Origin: Geothrix oryzisoli
GTDB taxonomy: Bacteria; Acidobacteriota; Holophagae; Holophagales; Holophagaceae
Length of the DNA: 64,000 nt
Reading direction: 5' to 3'
NCBI RefSeq assembly: GCF_022808865.1
Contig: NZ_JAKZLB010000002.1
Span: 200,019-264,018, forward strand
The notes beneath the pieces were generated by a model. It ran no database searches and was not told where the DNA came from. It saw nothing but the letters and a program-made list of their open reading frames with translations. The translations under genes and the position numbers were made by a program. This document shows, in pieces, positions 48,259 to 55,164 of this stretch; the stretch's first letter is position 1, and each line of letters opens with the position of its first letter.

Positions 48259-48384
48259 CGCGCCGGAAACCTCGGAAAGGTGTAAAAGGTCATGCTAGCA
48301 CGGGGTCTGCCGTAAAGCTGGGGAGCGCCTTGTCTTCCAGGCCCCCATGCTAGGCTTGACTCCATCTTTTTCCCTGGCGAACCC

Positions 48385-50778
48385 ATGGTTCAGTTCAATA
48401 CCCGAGCCAACGAGATCCTGCTCAAGCTGGTCTACTATGGGCCGGGCCTGTCGGGCAAGACGACCAATCTGCAGTCCCTGCACGCCATGTGCTCCGACCG
48501 GCAGCGGGGGGAGTTGTTCTCCGTCAACACCCAGGAGGACCGCACCCTCTTCTTCGACCTGCTGCCCATCAACCTGGGCTACGTCTACGGGAACTCCATC
48601 CACCTGCAGATCTACACGGTGCCCGGTCAGGTGCAGTACGACGCCAGCCGCCGGGTGGTGCTGGGCGGGGCGGATGGGGTGGTCTTCGTGGCGGATTCCA
48701 GCGAGTCCAAGATGCAGGACAACGTGGACTCGCTGTCGAACCTGTACCACAACCTCAACGCCAACCGCTTGAACATCAAGCAGATCCCCTTCGTCCTCCA
48801 GTACAACAAGCGGGACCTGCCGGACGCCATGGCCGTGGGCGTCATGAACCGCCGGCTGAATTTCCGCAGCGTCCCCTACTTCGAATCCGTGGCCAACCGG
48901 GGCACGGGGGTGCTGGACACCTTTCTGGCCATCACCCGGGATACGGTGGCCTACACCTTCAAAAAGTACCACCTGGACAAGAAGATCAAGGACTTCGACG
49001 AGATGCTCGCGCTCATCGAGTCCAATGTGCGGACGACCCTGCACGAGCTCCCGCCCCCTCCGGAGCCTTCCGCGCAGCCCGAGGAGCCGTCCGCCCCGGC
49101 GCTGCGCACGACGGTGCTGAAGCATGGCAGCGTGAGCATCGACGACCTGCAGCCCGGCCGGGCGGCCGATCCCCAGGAACTGCTGGAGAACGCCCTCAAG
49201 TCGAACATGGAGACGGCCCGCCTCTATTCGGAGCTGAAAGAGGCCAAGGAGTCGCTGGAGCAGAAGAACGAGGAGCTGGGCAAGCTCTACGCGCAGCTGG
49301 AGCGCGTGAACCAGGACAACCAGAAGACCCGGAAGTACCTGGAGGGCCTCATCCAGAACATGGGCGAGGCGCTGATCTCCTTCGCGCCGGACGGGAAGAT
49401 CCTCACCTGGAACGCGGCGGCCGAGCGCATCTTCGGCTACACGCGGCCTGAAATCGTGGGCCGCAACATCTCCCAGCTCGCGCCGAGCCACCTGGTGGGC
49501 GAGCTGGATCAGATCACCCACCAGGTCGGCCGCGGCCAGGTGGTCCGCGACAAGGAGACGATCCGCGTCCGCAAGGGGGGCGAGACCTTCTCGGCCAGCG
49601 TCACCTACGCTCCGGTGCGGGGCGCCGACGACCGCGTCATCGCCCTCTCGGCCCTGATGCGCGACACCAGCCAGACCCAGGCCCTGGAGGACCAACTGGT
49701 CCACTCCCAGAAGCACGAGGCCCTCGGGAGGCTGGTACCGACCCTCTTCCACGAGGCCGCAAACCGGCTGACCCCGGTGCTGCTGGAGGCCCGGCTCATT
49801 TCAGAATCCGCCCTGGACCCCTACCAGGCCGAGCAGGCGGCCCGCCTGGTGAAGGCCGTGGACTCGGTGCAGAGCCTGCTGGATCCCCTCCAGACGGTGT
49901 TGAATCCGCCCAAACCGGCCCGCGTTCCGACCCAGCTGAACCAGGTGATCCAGGAGGCCGTGGGCTTGGTGGACCTGAAGGCGCGGCGCATGGGCGCCAC
50001 CCTGGACCTGAACCTGGACGCCAACCTGCCCGAGGCGCCCTTCGATCCGTGCCTGCTGCGCCAGGCCCTCACGAATCTGCTGCTGAACGGGCTCCAGGCC
50101 ATGGCCACCAGTCCGGCCAAGCGCCTCCGCATCGCCACCCGGGTGGTGGACGGCCAGGCGCAGGTGGTGGTCCAGGATTCGGGAACCCCGATTCCCGAGG
50201 CCGTCCTGGCGGATCTCTTCGATCCCGTCTCGGCCGCCACGCCGGAGGCCCTGGGCCTGCCGGTGGCCCACATCATCGCGCGCCAGCATGGCGGCCGGCT
50301 GACGGTGCGGAGCCAGGAGGGCCTGGGGAATGCGTTCCTCCTAGAGCTCCCCCTCCAGACCACGCCTGCCGCCGTCGCCTCCGAGGCCACGGGCTTGCAG
50401 GGCCGCCGGGCCCTGGTGGTGGACGATGAAGCCTTCCTGCTCGAGTGCCTGGTGGACGCGCTCCAGATCTGGGGCATGGAGGTCGTCTCGGCCAGTCAGG
50501 GCGAGGAGGCCATCCAGCGCCTCGAGGCGGGGGAGTTCGACCTGATCGTCTCGGACATCCGCATGCCCGGGCTGTCGGGCGTGGACCTCTTCAAGTGGCT
50601 GCAGGCCCACCGTGCGTCCATGACGCGGCGGATCCTCTTCACCACGGGCGATTCCTTCGACGCGAAGACGCGCGACTTCCTGGAAACGAGCCAGGTGCCC
50701 TATCTGGGTAAGCCTTTCGATCTAGCGCCACTGAAACAAAGCCTTGAGCAACTGCTAGAGACTCCGATCGAGGCGTGA
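48385..50778 (+). CDS. MglA-type GTPase / PAS / histidine-kinase-like / receiver fusion protein
   Basis: A 797-residue multidomain signalling protein. Residues 1-195 form an MglA-family Ras-like GTPase: P-loop GPGLSGKTT (19-27), DRTLFFDLLP, TVPGQ (78-82) and base motif NKRD (141-144). A coiled coil follows (about 270-315), then a PAS domain (318-430; FAPDGKILTWNAAAERIFGY). A HisKA-like region has His456 in LFHEAANRL. The ATPase domain (510-658) keeps NLLLNGLQAM and DSG but lacks the GxGLGL G2 motif. A receiver (674-793) has DDE at 680-682, phospho-Asp724 and Lys776. There is no membrane segment. Kinase activity is doubtful; GTP may gate the output. Neighbours: a secreted protein downstream. 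Confidence 0.92.
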   Translation: MVQFNTRANEILLKLVYYGPGLSGKTTNLQSLHAMCSDRQRGELFSVNTQEDRTLFFDLLPINLGYVYGNSIHLQIYTVPGQVQYDASRRVVLGGADGVVFVADSSESKMQDNVDSLSNLYHNLNANRLNIKQIPFVLQYNKRDLPDAMAVGVMNRRLNFRSVPYFESVANRGTGVLDTFLAITRDTVAYTFKKYHLDKKIKDFDEMLALIESNVRTTLHELPPPPEPSAQPEEPSAPALRTTVLKHGSVSIDDLQPGRAADPQELLENALKSNMETARLYSELKEAKESLEQKNEELGKLYAQLERVNQDNQKTRKYLEGLIQNMGEALISFAPDGKILTWNAAAERIFGYTRPEIVGRNISQLAPSHLVGELDQITHQVGRGQVVRDKETIRVRKGGETFSASVTYAPVRGADDRVIALSALMRDTSQTQALEDQLVHSQKHEALGRLVPTLFHEAANRLTPVLLEARLISESALDPYQAEQAARLVKAVDSVQSLLDPLQTVLNPPKPARVPTQLNQVIQEAVGLVDLKARRMGATLDLNLDANLPEAPFDPCLLRQALTNLLLNGLQAMATSPAKRLRIATRVVDGQAQVVVQDSGTPIPEAVLADLFDPVSAATPEALGLPVAHIIARQHGGRLTVRSQEGLGNAFLLELPLQTTPAAVASEATGLQGRRALVVDDEAFLLECLVDALQIWGMEVVSASQGEEAIQRLEAGEFDLIVSDIRMPGLSGVDLFKWLQAHRASMTRRILFTTGDSFDAKTRDFLETSQVPYLGKPFDLAPLKQSLEQLLETPIEA

Positions 50779-52014: not shown

Positions 52015-52734
52015 CTATTCCTCGCCCTTGCGCTGCTTCCCTTCCGGGTCGAACTGGTAGCCCACGCTGCGGATGGTGTGGACCCAGCGGGGATGGTGGG
52101 GATCCTGCTCCATCACCCGCCGGATGCGGACGATGAAGTTGTCGACGGTGCGGCTGGTGGGATAGGCGTCCTCGCCCCACACCTTGTCCAGGATGTCCGT
52201 GCGGCTCACCACCTGGCCCGGCCGCTCCATGAGCAGCCGGAGGATCATGCATTCCTTCATGCCCAGCTGGAAGGGGCCGTTGGGACCCTCGCCGCAGTAG
52301 TTGTCGAAGTCCACCCAGTGGGAGCCGTAGGCCTGCCGGCTGCTCATCTCCCGGCCCCGGTACCACGCCTCGCGCCGGAGGATGGCCCGCACCCGCAGGA
52401 GCAGCTCCCTCACCTGGAAGGGCTTGCCCAGGTAGTCGTCGGCGCCGGTCTCGAAGCCGTGCACCCGGTCGTCATCCGTGTTTTTGGCGGTGAGGAAGAG
52501 GACCGGGGTGAAGTTCTTGGCCTCCCGCACCTTCTCGCAGATGGTGAAGCCGTCCATGCCCGGCAGCATCACGTCGAGGATCACCAGGTCGAAGGTCTCC
52601 GCCAGGATCTGCTTGAGGGCCTGGTCGCCCCGGGGGATCCAGGTGCAGGCGAGGCCCTCCATCTCCAGGTTGAGCTTGATGCCCTCCGCGAGGCTGAGCT
52701 CGTCTTCCACCAGCAGGATCTTGGGCTCGGGCAT
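52015..52734 (-). CDS. OmpR/PhoB-type response regulator (orphan)
   Basis: A 239-residue two-domain regulator. The receiver has the acidic pair in LLVEDELS, phospho-Asp in LVILDVMLPGMDG (near 53) and Lys in DYLGKPF. The winged-helix output domain has ILDKVWGEDAYPTSRTVDNF and ends TIRSVGYQFD. An unusual 20-residue linker/insert (EAWYRGREMSSRQAYGSHW) lies between the domains. No kinase gene is adjacent; kinases at 40.0 and 48.4 kb are possible partners. Divergent from the glycosyltransferase gene with a 52-bp shared region. Confidence 0.92.
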   Translation of the reverse strand: MPEPKILLVEDELSLAEGIKLNLEMEGLACTWIPRGDQALKQILAETFDLVILDVMLPGMDGFTICEKVREAKNFTPVLFLTAKNTDDDRVHGFETGADDYLGKPFQVRELLLRVRAILRREAWYRGREMSSRQAYGSHWVDFDNYCGEGPNGPFQLGMKECMILRLLMERPGQVVSRTDILDKVWGEDAYPTSRTVDNFIVRIRRVMEQDPHHPRWVHTIRSVGYQFDPEGKQRKGEE

Positions 52735-52786
52735 GGGAAACTCCAGCAACCTGTTGATCCTACTAGAATGAGGGGTTGGAGCGCCC

Positions 52787-53737
52787 ATGGACCCCTATCT
52801 GAGCATCGTCATCCCCATCTACAACGAGGAGGAGAACATCCCCACGCTGTGGGCGCGCCTGTCCAAGGTGCTGGCGGAGCACTTCGCAGACCCCGCGAAG
52901 CCCTGGGAGGTCGTCCTCACGGATGACGGCAGCCGGGACCGCAGCCTGGCCATGCTGGTGGACATCGCCAAGACGGAACCCCGCGTGAAGGTGGTGGAGT
53001 TCAACCGGAACTACGGCCAGCACAGCGCCATCTTCGGGGCCTTCGCCGAGGTGCAGGGCCGGATCGTGGTCACCCTGGATGCCGACCTCCAGAACCCTCC
53101 CGAGGAGATCCCCAAGCTCGTGGCCAAGGTGGAGGAGGGCTACGACGTGGTGGGCGGCTGGCGCCAGGGCCGGCAGGAGAACGACAGCTTCTTCCGGACC
53201 ATGCCGAGCAAGATCGTCAATGCCGTCACCCGCAAGACCACCGGCGTGAAGCTCCACGACTACGGCTGCATGCTGCGGGCCTACAGTCGCGAAGTGGTGG
53301 ACGCCATGCTGCTCTGCAAGGAGCGCTCGAGCTTCATCCCCGCGCTGGCCAACAGCTTCGCCAAGCGCATCACCGAAGTGCCCGTGGCCCACGCGGAGCG
53401 GGCCGCCGGCGAGAGCAAGTACGGCCTCTGGAAGCTCATCAACCTGCAGTTCGACCTGCTCACCAGCTTCAGCCTGATTCCCCTCCAGGCCCTCAGCGTG
53501 TTCGGTGTCATCACGGCGGGCTTCGGGTTCATCCTCTTCCTGGGCCTGGTGATCTACCGCTTCCTGCACCCGGAAGGCACGGCCCAGGGCGTGTTCACCC
53601 TGTTCGCCATCCTCTTCTTCTTCGTGGGCTGCCAGTTCATCGCCTTCGGCCTGCTGGGCGAGTACATCGGCCGCATCTACCAGGAGGTGCGTGACCGGCC
53701 CCGCTACATGGTGAAGAAGGTCCACCAGGCGAAGTAG
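52787..53737 (+). CDS. ArnC-like polyprenyl-phosphate glycosyltransferase (GT2)
   Basis: A 316-residue membrane-bound GT-A glycosyltransferase that should load a sugar onto undecaprenyl phosphate. The catalytic domain has IVIPIYNEEENI, the DDGSRDRS loop and the metal motif LDADLQNPPEEIP. Two membrane helices lie near residues 228-252 and 268-292, ending GLLGEYIGRIYQEVRDRPRY. Several stretches closely match remembered E. coli ArnC (YGQHSAI, DYGCMLRAY, LLGEYIGRIY). No other arn gene is present, so the sugar could differ; dolichol-phosphate-mannose-synthase-like GtrB proteins are the alternative. Confidence 0.9.
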   Translation: MDPYLSIVIPIYNEEENIPTLWARLSKVLAEHFADPAKPWEVVLTDDGSRDRSLAMLVDIAKTEPRVKVVEFNRNYGQHSAIFGAFAEVQGRIVVTLDADLQNPPEEIPKLVAKVEEGYDVVGGWRQGRQENDSFFRTMPSKIVNAVTRKTTGVKLHDYGCMLRAYSREVVDAMLLCKERSSFIPALANSFAKRITEVPVAHAERAAGESKYGLWKLINLQFDLLTSFSLIPLQALSVFGVITAGFGFILFLGLVIYRFLHPEGTAQGVFTLFAILFFFVGCQFIAFGLLGEYIGRIYQEVRDRPRYMVKKVHQAK

Positions 53738-53751
53738 GGCACGGACCCCGG

Positions 53752-55164
53752 CTATCCGGCCAGCCCGGCCGGGAAGGCCACCGTGACGACCAGGCCGGGG
53801 CCCGCGTCGGGATCCCCCAGCCGGACCTCGGCGCCCAGGGCGCGGGCCACTTCCTGGACGATGGACAGGCCCAGGCCGCACCCGGGCGTGTCGTCGCTGC
53901 CGAGCCGGCAGAACCGCTCGAACACCCGGAGGCGGTCGGCGGGGGGGATGCCCGGCCCATTGTCCTCGACGGTCAGGACAGGACCCCCCTCCGCCGTCCG
54001 GAGCGAGAGCGTGACCCGGCCGCCGGGGGGCGTGTAGCAGAGGGCGTTGTCCACGAGGTTGGCCACCAGCTCGTGGAGCATGGCGGACGGGGCGGCCAGA
54101 GTCAGGGGCCCCTCCGGGCGGTCGAAGCCGAGGTCGATGTTCCGCGACTGGGCCAGGGTCGCCTGCTCCTCGAGCACGCGCTGGGCGAGGTCCGCGAGGT
54201 CCACCCGCTCGCCGGAGCGGTGGGCCAGGGTCCCGGCCTCGGCCCGGGACAGGGTGAGCAGCTGGTTCACCAGGCGGGTGCCCTGGCGCACGCCGTCGGC
54301 CATGGCCCCCAGGGCTTCGTCCTTGAGGGCGGGATCGGCGCTGCGAAGGCCGTGGCTGGCCTGGGTCTGGAGTACGGCGAAGGGGGTGCGGAGCTGGTGG
54401 GAGGCGTTGGCGATGAAGCGGCTGCGGACCGCCATCTGGGCGTCCAGGCGCTGGATGTAGCCGTTGAGGGCCCCGACCAGGGGCTGGAGCTCCTGGGGCA
54501 TGGGACCGGCCTGCAGCGGTTCGAGGGAGCCGGGCGTGCGCCGGCCCACCTCGTCCCGGAGCCGGAGGATGTCCTTCAGGCCCCGGCGCAGGGCGAACCA
54601 GATCAGGAGGCCGGCGAGGGCCAGCGTCCACAGGTCCTGGCGCAGGGTGGTGGTCCAGAGCTTGCGGACCAGCTGGTCGTGGTCCTGGAGGGTCTGGGCC
54701 ACCTCGATGATCACCGGGCCCTCCGCGGGAGCTGCGAACACAGGCTGGGCGTAGGCCACCACCCGGACGGGTTCGCCCCGGACCTCCGCCTGGAAGTACA
54801 CCGACTCCTCGGGCCGGGGCGCCTCGGCCGGGGACGGCAGCTCCGCATAACCCGAGAGGAGCACGCCCCTGGGCGAGGCGATGCGGTAGTACACCCGGTC
54901 CTGGGCCCTGGACTGGAACAGTTCGAGCGCCGCCGGGGGGATGGCCACGTCGAGGAGGCCATCCTCGAACTGGATCTGCTGCGCGATGATGCGCGCGGAG
55001 CCGAGCAGCAGGCGGTCCTGCACCATGTCGGCCGTGTACCGGGCCTCCCGCCGGGCCAGGGCGAGGTTCGCGAGGGCGAGGACGCCCAGGGGCACCAGCA
55101 GCCACAGCAGCAGGCGGGCCCGGAGGCTGAGGGTGGACTTGGAGTACGACCTCTTAGGCGTCAT
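53752..55164 (-). CDS. Sensor histidine kinase, TctE-like
   Basis: A 470-residue membrane kinase. Membrane helices lie near residues 17-37 and 176-193, enclosing a periplasmic domain of the two-component-sensor N-terminal type seen in TctE. H box SRFIANASHQLRTPFAVLQ, N box LVANLVDNALCYTP, G1 VEDNGPGIP and G2 GCGLGLSIVQEV are intact, so it should be active. Its start overlaps the regulator gene by 11 bases. The gene order binding protein-regulator-kinase suggests that it senses the ligand of the adjacent binding protein, probably a carboxylate. Confidence 0.93.
   Translation of the reverse strand: MTPKRSYSKSTLSLRARLLLWLLVPLGVLALANLALARREARYTADMVQDRLLLGSARIIAQQIQFEDGLLDVAIPPAALELFQSRAQDRVYYRIASPRGVLLSGYAELPSPAEAPRPEESVYFQAEVRGEPVRVVAYAQPVFAAPAEGPVIIEVAQTLQDHDQLVRKLWTTTLRQDLWTLALAGLLIWFALRRGLKDILRLRDEVGRRTPGSLEPLQAGPMPQELQPLVGALNGYIQRLDAQMAVRSRFIANASHQLRTPFAVLQTQASHGLRSADPALKDEALGAMADGVRQGTRLVNQLLTLSRAEAGTLAHRSGERVDLADLAQRVLEEQATLAQSRNIDLGFDRPEGPLTLAAPSAMLHELVANLVDNALCYTPPGGRVTLSLRTAEGGPVLTVEDNGPGIPPADRLRVFERFCRLGSDDTPGCGLGLSIVQEVARALGAEVRLGDPDAGPGLVVTVAFPAGLAG

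Follow-up and report, generated by a model that had tools for sequence, protein, structure and literature searches.

MglA normally acts as a free switch under the control of a roadblock protein (PMC4316618), as a prior sequence-only reading of the DNA studied here had correctly stated. The Group 1 MglA proteins, such as those of M. xanthus and T. thermophilus with their partner MglB, are defined by an intrinsic Arg finger in the classification of Wuichet and Sogaard-Andersen (PMC4316618). Because the 2014 census of bacterial small GTPases left out proteins >240 aa (PMC4316618), it was blind to MglA fusions. A histidine kinase is coupled to an MglA-family GTPase in the actinobacterial conservons (PMC4316618; PMC13343842), four-gene clusters of a kinase (CvnA), an MglB (CvnB), CvnC, and a GTPase (CvnD), and autophosphorylation was demonstrated for the conservon kinase CvnA8 (PMC13343842). 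Loss of canonical kinase features is illustrated by the pseudo-histidine kinase DivL, which works allosterically together with a response regulator; in Rhodobacterales its kinase part was lost altogether, leaving the PAS part only (PMC9430884). Each domain considered below is known, as are links between MglA and two-component proteins in trans (RomR-MglA and the conservons).

Here, we describe a protein from Geothrix oryzisoli, one of the Geothrix-type bacteria of soil and sediment, in which such a link is covalent, encoded within a 64,000-nucleotide stretch of DNA that was analyzed as a whole (the window). With Group 1 MglA the fusion shares the P-loop, the Arg finger beside the G2 Thr, TVPGQ, and NKRD (the [NT]KxD motif of G4), but it differs by about 600 extra residues, by the lack of an adjacent mglB, and by falling in a clade apart from free MglA; at 797 aa it lies outside the single-domain proteins of <=240 aa that the census covered. 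The conservons offer the closest functional parallel for coupling a kinase to a GTPase, yet they use separate genes and a Group 2 GTPase, whereas the fusion is one chain with a Group 1 GTPase and a degenerate kinase, located among envelope genes rather than in a four-gene cluster. The closest working parallel is DivL, which likewise has a non-canonical kinase core and underwent reduction to PAS-only forms; unlike the fusion, DivL has no MglA part, and the match does not point to specific kinship, since ordinary kinases tie with DivL in Z score. Acidobacterial MglA-GAF-histidine kinases also combine MglA, coil, sensor, and kinase in one chain and lie on the same side of a 100/99 branch in our tree, but carry GAF in place of PAS, have no receiver, and in part show intact kinase motifs, which only some of these proteins retain. 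In the open-access literature searched, we found no description of an MglA-kinase fusion, an absence that is weak evidence, nor of what the sequences indicate to be a covalent MglA-sensor-kinase chain spread phylum-wide in Acidobacteriota with repeated kinase decay.

Results

The fusion gene is a single frame (Table 1), and both Pfam and AlphaFold2 bore out the proposed succession of an MglA GTPase, a coiled coil, a PAS domain, a kinase-like part, and a receiver; the residue positions read earlier for the GTPase motifs, His456, Asp724, and Lys776 were right as well. All Pfam matches exceeded the curated cut-offs (Ras 26.1, Arf 23.4, PAS 56.9, HATPase_c 57.4, and Response_reg 72.7 bits), while no HisKA model of Pfam matched the 797-aa protein at E<=0.1. 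AlphaFold2 modeled the helix at 263-325, the PAS domain, the DHp helix pair, the HATPase fold, and the receiver at good pLDDT, and 26 of the 80 alignment columns in the coil region (241-320) were invariant. The MglA part was modeled poorly (pLDDT about 23-56), probably because 26 alignment rows are near-identical there, and the model is uninformative as to its packing on the remaining domains. Hence, the MglA fold rests on the sequence match of the first 190 residues to solved MglA structures (6h17 from M. xanthus, E 5e-57; 3t12, E 2e-49). Upstream of the gene, the probable extended -10 element recurs in similar form, again about 28 nt ahead of the start codon, in most Geothrix orthologs when compared by eye, and TTTTCCTGGCGAACCC directly 5' of the fusion ATG is conserved too; no Shine-Dalgarno sequence was seen before this ATG.

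Table 1. Features of the fusion gene, in window coordinates, with residue numbers in parentheses.
Feature	Position	Strand	Remarks
Probable extended -10 element TGnTAGGCT	48348..48356	+	28 nt upstream of fusion ATG
Complete gene MglA-coil-PAS-pseudokinase-receiver	48385..50778	+	797 aa, one uninterrupted frame, ATG start
Group-1 MglA-type Ras-like GTPase domain (1-195)	48385..48969	+	Pfam Ras/Arf; PDB match; 147/195 columns invariant
G1 P-loop GPGLSGKTT (19-27)	48439..48465	+	48/48 aligned sequences
Intrinsic Arg finger R53 beside G2 Thr54	48541..48546	+	48/48
G3 motif TVPGQ (78-82)	48616..48630	+	48/48
G4 motif NKRD (141-144)	48805..48816	+	48/48
Long helix, probable coiled-coil signaling helix (263-325)	49171..49359	+	AlphaFold2, 63 residues
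PAS domain (319-427)	49339..49665	+	Pfam 56.9 bits
DHp-like helix pair (432-512), without Pfam HisKA match	49678..49920	+	AlphaFold2 helices 451-474, 480-506; structure comparison
His456	49750..49752	+	Present in window protein; N/D/T in 15/48
HATPase_c-like domain (513-660)	49921..50364	+	N568, D598, G600 kept; G1 second Gly and two G2 lid glycines lost
Degenerate G2/lid site PEALGL (620-625) replacing GxGLGL	50242..50259	+	Complete motif in 0/48
Receiver domain (676-790)	50410..50754	+	Pfam 72.7 bits
Phospho-acceptor Asp724	50554..50556	+	43/43 sequences having a receiver
Receiver Lys776	50710..50712	+	43/43

The fused architecture is conserved. Upon scanning one genome per species, we found full or partial orthologs in Geothrix and in other Holophagaceae isolates and MAGs, and most additional genomes of this family likewise encode the fused frame, as a scan of the phylum showed. 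We aligned the window protein with 47 orthologs from independent Holophagaceae assemblies (n = 48), which have the N-terminus and the frame in common and all carry MglA, coil, PAS, and kinase part; the receiver is present in 42 of the 47, and absent in 5/48 aligned sequences. On every contig that was long enough, uppS and the fusion are divergently oriented, and cdsA-dxr-rseP usually lie behind uppS; downstream of the fusion, the Geothrix loci share a hypothetical gene, a response regulator, and a glycosyltransferase. With the same frame and neighbors in 47 orthologs from independent assemblies, the probability that a frameshift or an assembly error joined two genes, named earlier as a case that would undo the finding, is practically nil. 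No effector or partner gene was linked to the fusion locus by position, its neighbors being envelope genes. An OmpR-type response regulator gene (52015-52788, - strand) lies near the fusion, with the hypothetical gene in between, in most Geothrix orthologs with enough flank.

The GTPase is by far the most constrained part of the chain. Judged from its motifs, it was shown to retain all residues for GTP binding and hydrolysis, with K25, R53, T54, Q82, N141, and D144 each found in 48/48 sequences, so that the other refuting case, a dead or unconserved GTPase, could be dismissed. While three quarters of the GTPase columns were invariant (Table 1), this held for only 5/81 in DHp and 9/100 in HATPase, and the mean identity to the window protein decreased from 0.94 for MglA to 0.72 for REC, 0.68 for DHp, and 0.61 for HATPase, an order that fits the GTPase being the output. 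Pairwise Ka/Ks values, which we obtained with our own Nei-Gojobori code for single pairs, some with Ks near saturation, were mostly 0-0.04 for MglA (highest 0.14) and mostly 0.02-0.34 for the remaining parts, with about 0.04-0.34 in the majority of pairs for DHp, HATPase, and REC. The kinase part is therefore not drifting freely, and its Ka/Ks was low even after loss of the His (0.068 for HATPase in L033/L045; 0.039 for DHp in L040/L048); the divergent pair L031/L034 gave 0.67 for DHp. These values, together with receiver catalytic residues that are intact in 43/43 sequences, make it quite improbable that kinase and receiver are vestigial and that only MglA-coil-PAS matters, a reading with which the five orthologs without a receiver and the several relatives that stop after PAS would agree.

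The kinase core, by contrast with the GTPase, has decayed at the sites of ATP use. The ATPase domain had been described as lacking the GxGLGL lid motif, and indeed this motif, which reads P620-E-A622-L-G624-L in the window protein, was complete in none of the 48 sequences. The second Gly of the G1 box (P602 in the window protein) was likewise absent 48/48, with A, P, L, and others in its place, and neither of the hybrid-kinase ATP boxes, G1 (DxGxG) and G2 (GxGxG), was complete in any sequence. The N-box Asn was lost in 15/48. The proposed HisKA-like helix pair was recovered as DHp helices in the AlphaFold2 model, even though Pfam gave no HisKA match. Its acceptor His was present in 33/48 sequences; the other 15 have N (10 sequences), D (3), or T (2) at this site. 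Every N-type protein has an intact receiver, and all five D- or T-type proteins have none. The window protein has Arg at H+5, where Pro is usual, and still carries His456, Glu457, N568, D598, and G600, which makes some autokinase or ATP-binding activity possible. As a control, a canonical histidine kinase encoded at 53752-55164 was found to hold its H, N, G1, and G2 boxes in 9/9 sequences from the family, which argues against the idea that kinases in these genomes lose such motifs in general, although the control comprises only nine sequences and this kinase was not found in most of the family.

In structure comparisons, the DHp-ATPase part gave DivL as the top match (Z 22.8, 203 residues, rmsd 4.8), with ordinary kinases tying in Z. 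The fold is that of a hybrid kinase, with HATPase_c and Response_reg matched by Pfam and a kinase core at Z about 22, and residues 450-791 align with the hybrid kinase ShkA (Z 20.3, rmsd 14.8); the acceptor His expected of hybrid kinases is not family-wide. The DivL type, a kinase fold without an acceptor His, is matched in fold, with the His kept in the window protein and lost in 15/48. We conclude from the alignment that the kinase part is a constrained pseudokinase-like module, apparently held for something besides standard ATP use. This agrees with one half of the function previously suggested, a scaffold with the degenerate ATPase domain as a dimer or binding module, which gained support from motifs broken in 48/48, the His lost in 15/48, and purifying selection.

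The other half, a GTP state that gates a phosphorelay, was weakened: ten orthologs pair an intact receiver with no His in cis, and MglA-coil-PAS persists in relatives from which the receiver or the entire kinase is gone. In the rival reading, the protein is an active hybrid histidine kinase, with autophosphorylation and His-to-Asp transfer gated by the GTP state of MglA. Such a kinase could draw on the residues still carried by the window protein, on the 33/48 sequences that keep the His and, around it, the DHp sequence, on the intact receivers, and on complete or near-complete kinase motifs behind MglA in relatives (L088, L110, L118, L181, and L185). We nevertheless regard it as unlikely, and as less likely than a GTPase output, given that the second G1 Gly and the full G2 box are missing throughout the alignment, that ten of the 15 sequences without the His keep an intact receiver, that the Pro at H+5 has become Arg, and that the canonical kinase next door keeps every box in the same family.

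The receiver is complete, as claimed: in addition to Asp724 and Lys776, residues D680, D681, and T754 were found in all 43 receiver-bearing sequences. PAS and receiver could, in principle, position a constitutively cycling MglA with its nucleotide state unchanged, and M. xanthus MglA does work with the response-regulator proteins AglZ, FrzS, and RomR (PMC4316618); we consider such a localization device very improbable, while noting that the sequence does not separate it from allosteric control.

The fused GTPase appears to be set apart from MglB. In the genome of the window, one clear MglB gene immediately precedes that of the free MglA, and a single weak roadblock match lies elsewhere; the fused and free MglA of this genome share 49% identity. 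No mglB was found next to the fusion, which is flanked by uppS-cdsA-dxr-rseP on one side and the hypothetical gene on the other, and an adjacent MglB as cognate GAP was thereby rejected. As to INDEPENDENCE from MglB, 4/4 genomes of the related genus g7 (G292, G399, G403, and G407) were roadblock-negative, although drafts can miss genes. Two of these, G292 and G399 (92 and 94% completeness), have a fused-type MglA, whereas neither a roadblock-domain protein nor a free 194-aa MglA was found in them; in G292 it is a complete MglA-PAS chain of 427 aa, and in G399 the locus ends inside PAS. Two streamlined genomes from the same family as the window (G174 and G316; 1.2 Mb, 96-97% completeness) gave no MglA match, and G174 also no roadblock match. 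When the free MglA of Holophagaceae is compared with the fused form, residues 1-191 contain 33 aligned positions that are fixed differently (>=90% each), among them A48N, F59L, H75Q, and F84Q near the switch regions. These differences suggest, but do not prove, that the fused MglA has a partner surface differing from that of free MglA. In the MglA-GAF-kinases, Q75 was found in 26/28 and L59 in 24/28.

Sensor-fused MglA proteins form a wider class. We opened about 100 distinct Acidobacteriota MglA frames, picked partly by length so that counts are not frequencies, and called their domains with HMMs built for this analysis, not with Pfam. They comprised free MglA of ~194 aa, MglA with acidic or Pro-rich tails, and sensor-fused kinds, namely MglA-GAF-kinase, MglA-GAF, MglA-PAS-kinase, MglA-PAS, and the Holophagaceae MglA-PAS-kinase-receiver. 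In an IQ-TREE analysis of the MglA domains, a 100/99 branch split 61 sensor-fused rows, including four kinase-remnant rows and one truncated row, from 47 rows of free or tailed MglA. Free MglA formed one group, and so did the PAS type of class Holophagae (both 100/99). The domain search and homolog tree that had been proposed as a check on conservation yielded a fusion kept in 47 orthologs and sensor-fused MglAs on one side of that 100/99 branch. Beyond what the sequence-only reading could see, chains of MglA, sensor, and kinase make up a class that spans the phylum Acidobacteriota.

Some members of this class keep their kinase motifs. These are complete in part of the MglA-GAF-kinases (L088, L110, L114, L118, and L181), and L185 has GLGMGL with the His intact, which makes a kinase output possible for the class at large. 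In close relatives, the His is replaced by A, N, D, or Q (L094, L154, L142/L143, and L087/L128). Over the tree, with 48 kinase-bearing rows, we counted at least eight changes of the His state, a count in which the most decayed rows (L086, L104, and the L096 group) are loosely aligned and the assignment of L086 to the His state was a choice. Six chains consist of MglA-PAS only (L093, L101, L105, L132, L133, and L234), making MglA-coil-PAS the minimal unit.

A separate MglA-GAF group without a kinase (L090, L091, L120, L124, L178, and L210; family f6) is drawn, under midpoint rooting, beside the free and tailed proteins, yet the 100/99 branch places it with the sensor-fused rows. Two further MglAs of the window's genome, L003 and L004 (G000:C2:653230 and G000:C1:887379), end in long C-terminal tails of acidic or Pro-rich composition (296 and 431 aa). 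Such tailed MglAs are widespread in Acidobacteriota and occur in the phylum of L054 as well, where MglA was found in 167/297 genomes; no MglA-sensor or MglA-kinase fusion was recognizable in the six long frames opened there, which either end in tails that are acidic or rich in Pro or contain a short MglA.

Discussion

With MglA near-frozen while the kinase decays, the chain probably controls a GTP switch rather than working as a kinase, and the same pattern suggests that the GTPase is what sensor and receiver act on. We therefore favor, with reasonable though far from full confidence, a reading in which the GTPase would provide the output, regulated or dimerized in cis by PAS, pseudokinase, and receiver. 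In such a scheme, the coiled coil and the DHp pair would form a dimer that keeps two GTPases together, while a separate kinase may phosphorylate the receiver in trans. This phosphorylation and the input from PAS would shift the helices, and in the MglA heads the shift could alter GTP loading, hydrolysis, or effector exposure. Hydrolysis would proceed via the intrinsic Arg finger with no dependence on MglB. As for the cellular role, control of polarity, pili, or surface motility is a guess by analogy with MglA, which in other bacteria sets the polarity of the cell. More tentatively, Acidobacteriota may possess one-chain, receptor-like G proteins, in which a Ras-type GTPase is permanently linked with a sensor of PAS or GAF type and with a kinase core; this core, its activity repeatedly lost, would be kept as an allosteric GEF- or GAP-like regulator, and the proteins would operate free of MglB.

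Overall, the link between two-component signaling and a Ras-like GTPase is covalent here and conserved across the family, with wider relatives across the phylum. Such a covalent and conserved link makes the direction of signal flow, be it from sensor and receiver to GTPase or from GTPase to kinase, testable with one purified protein.
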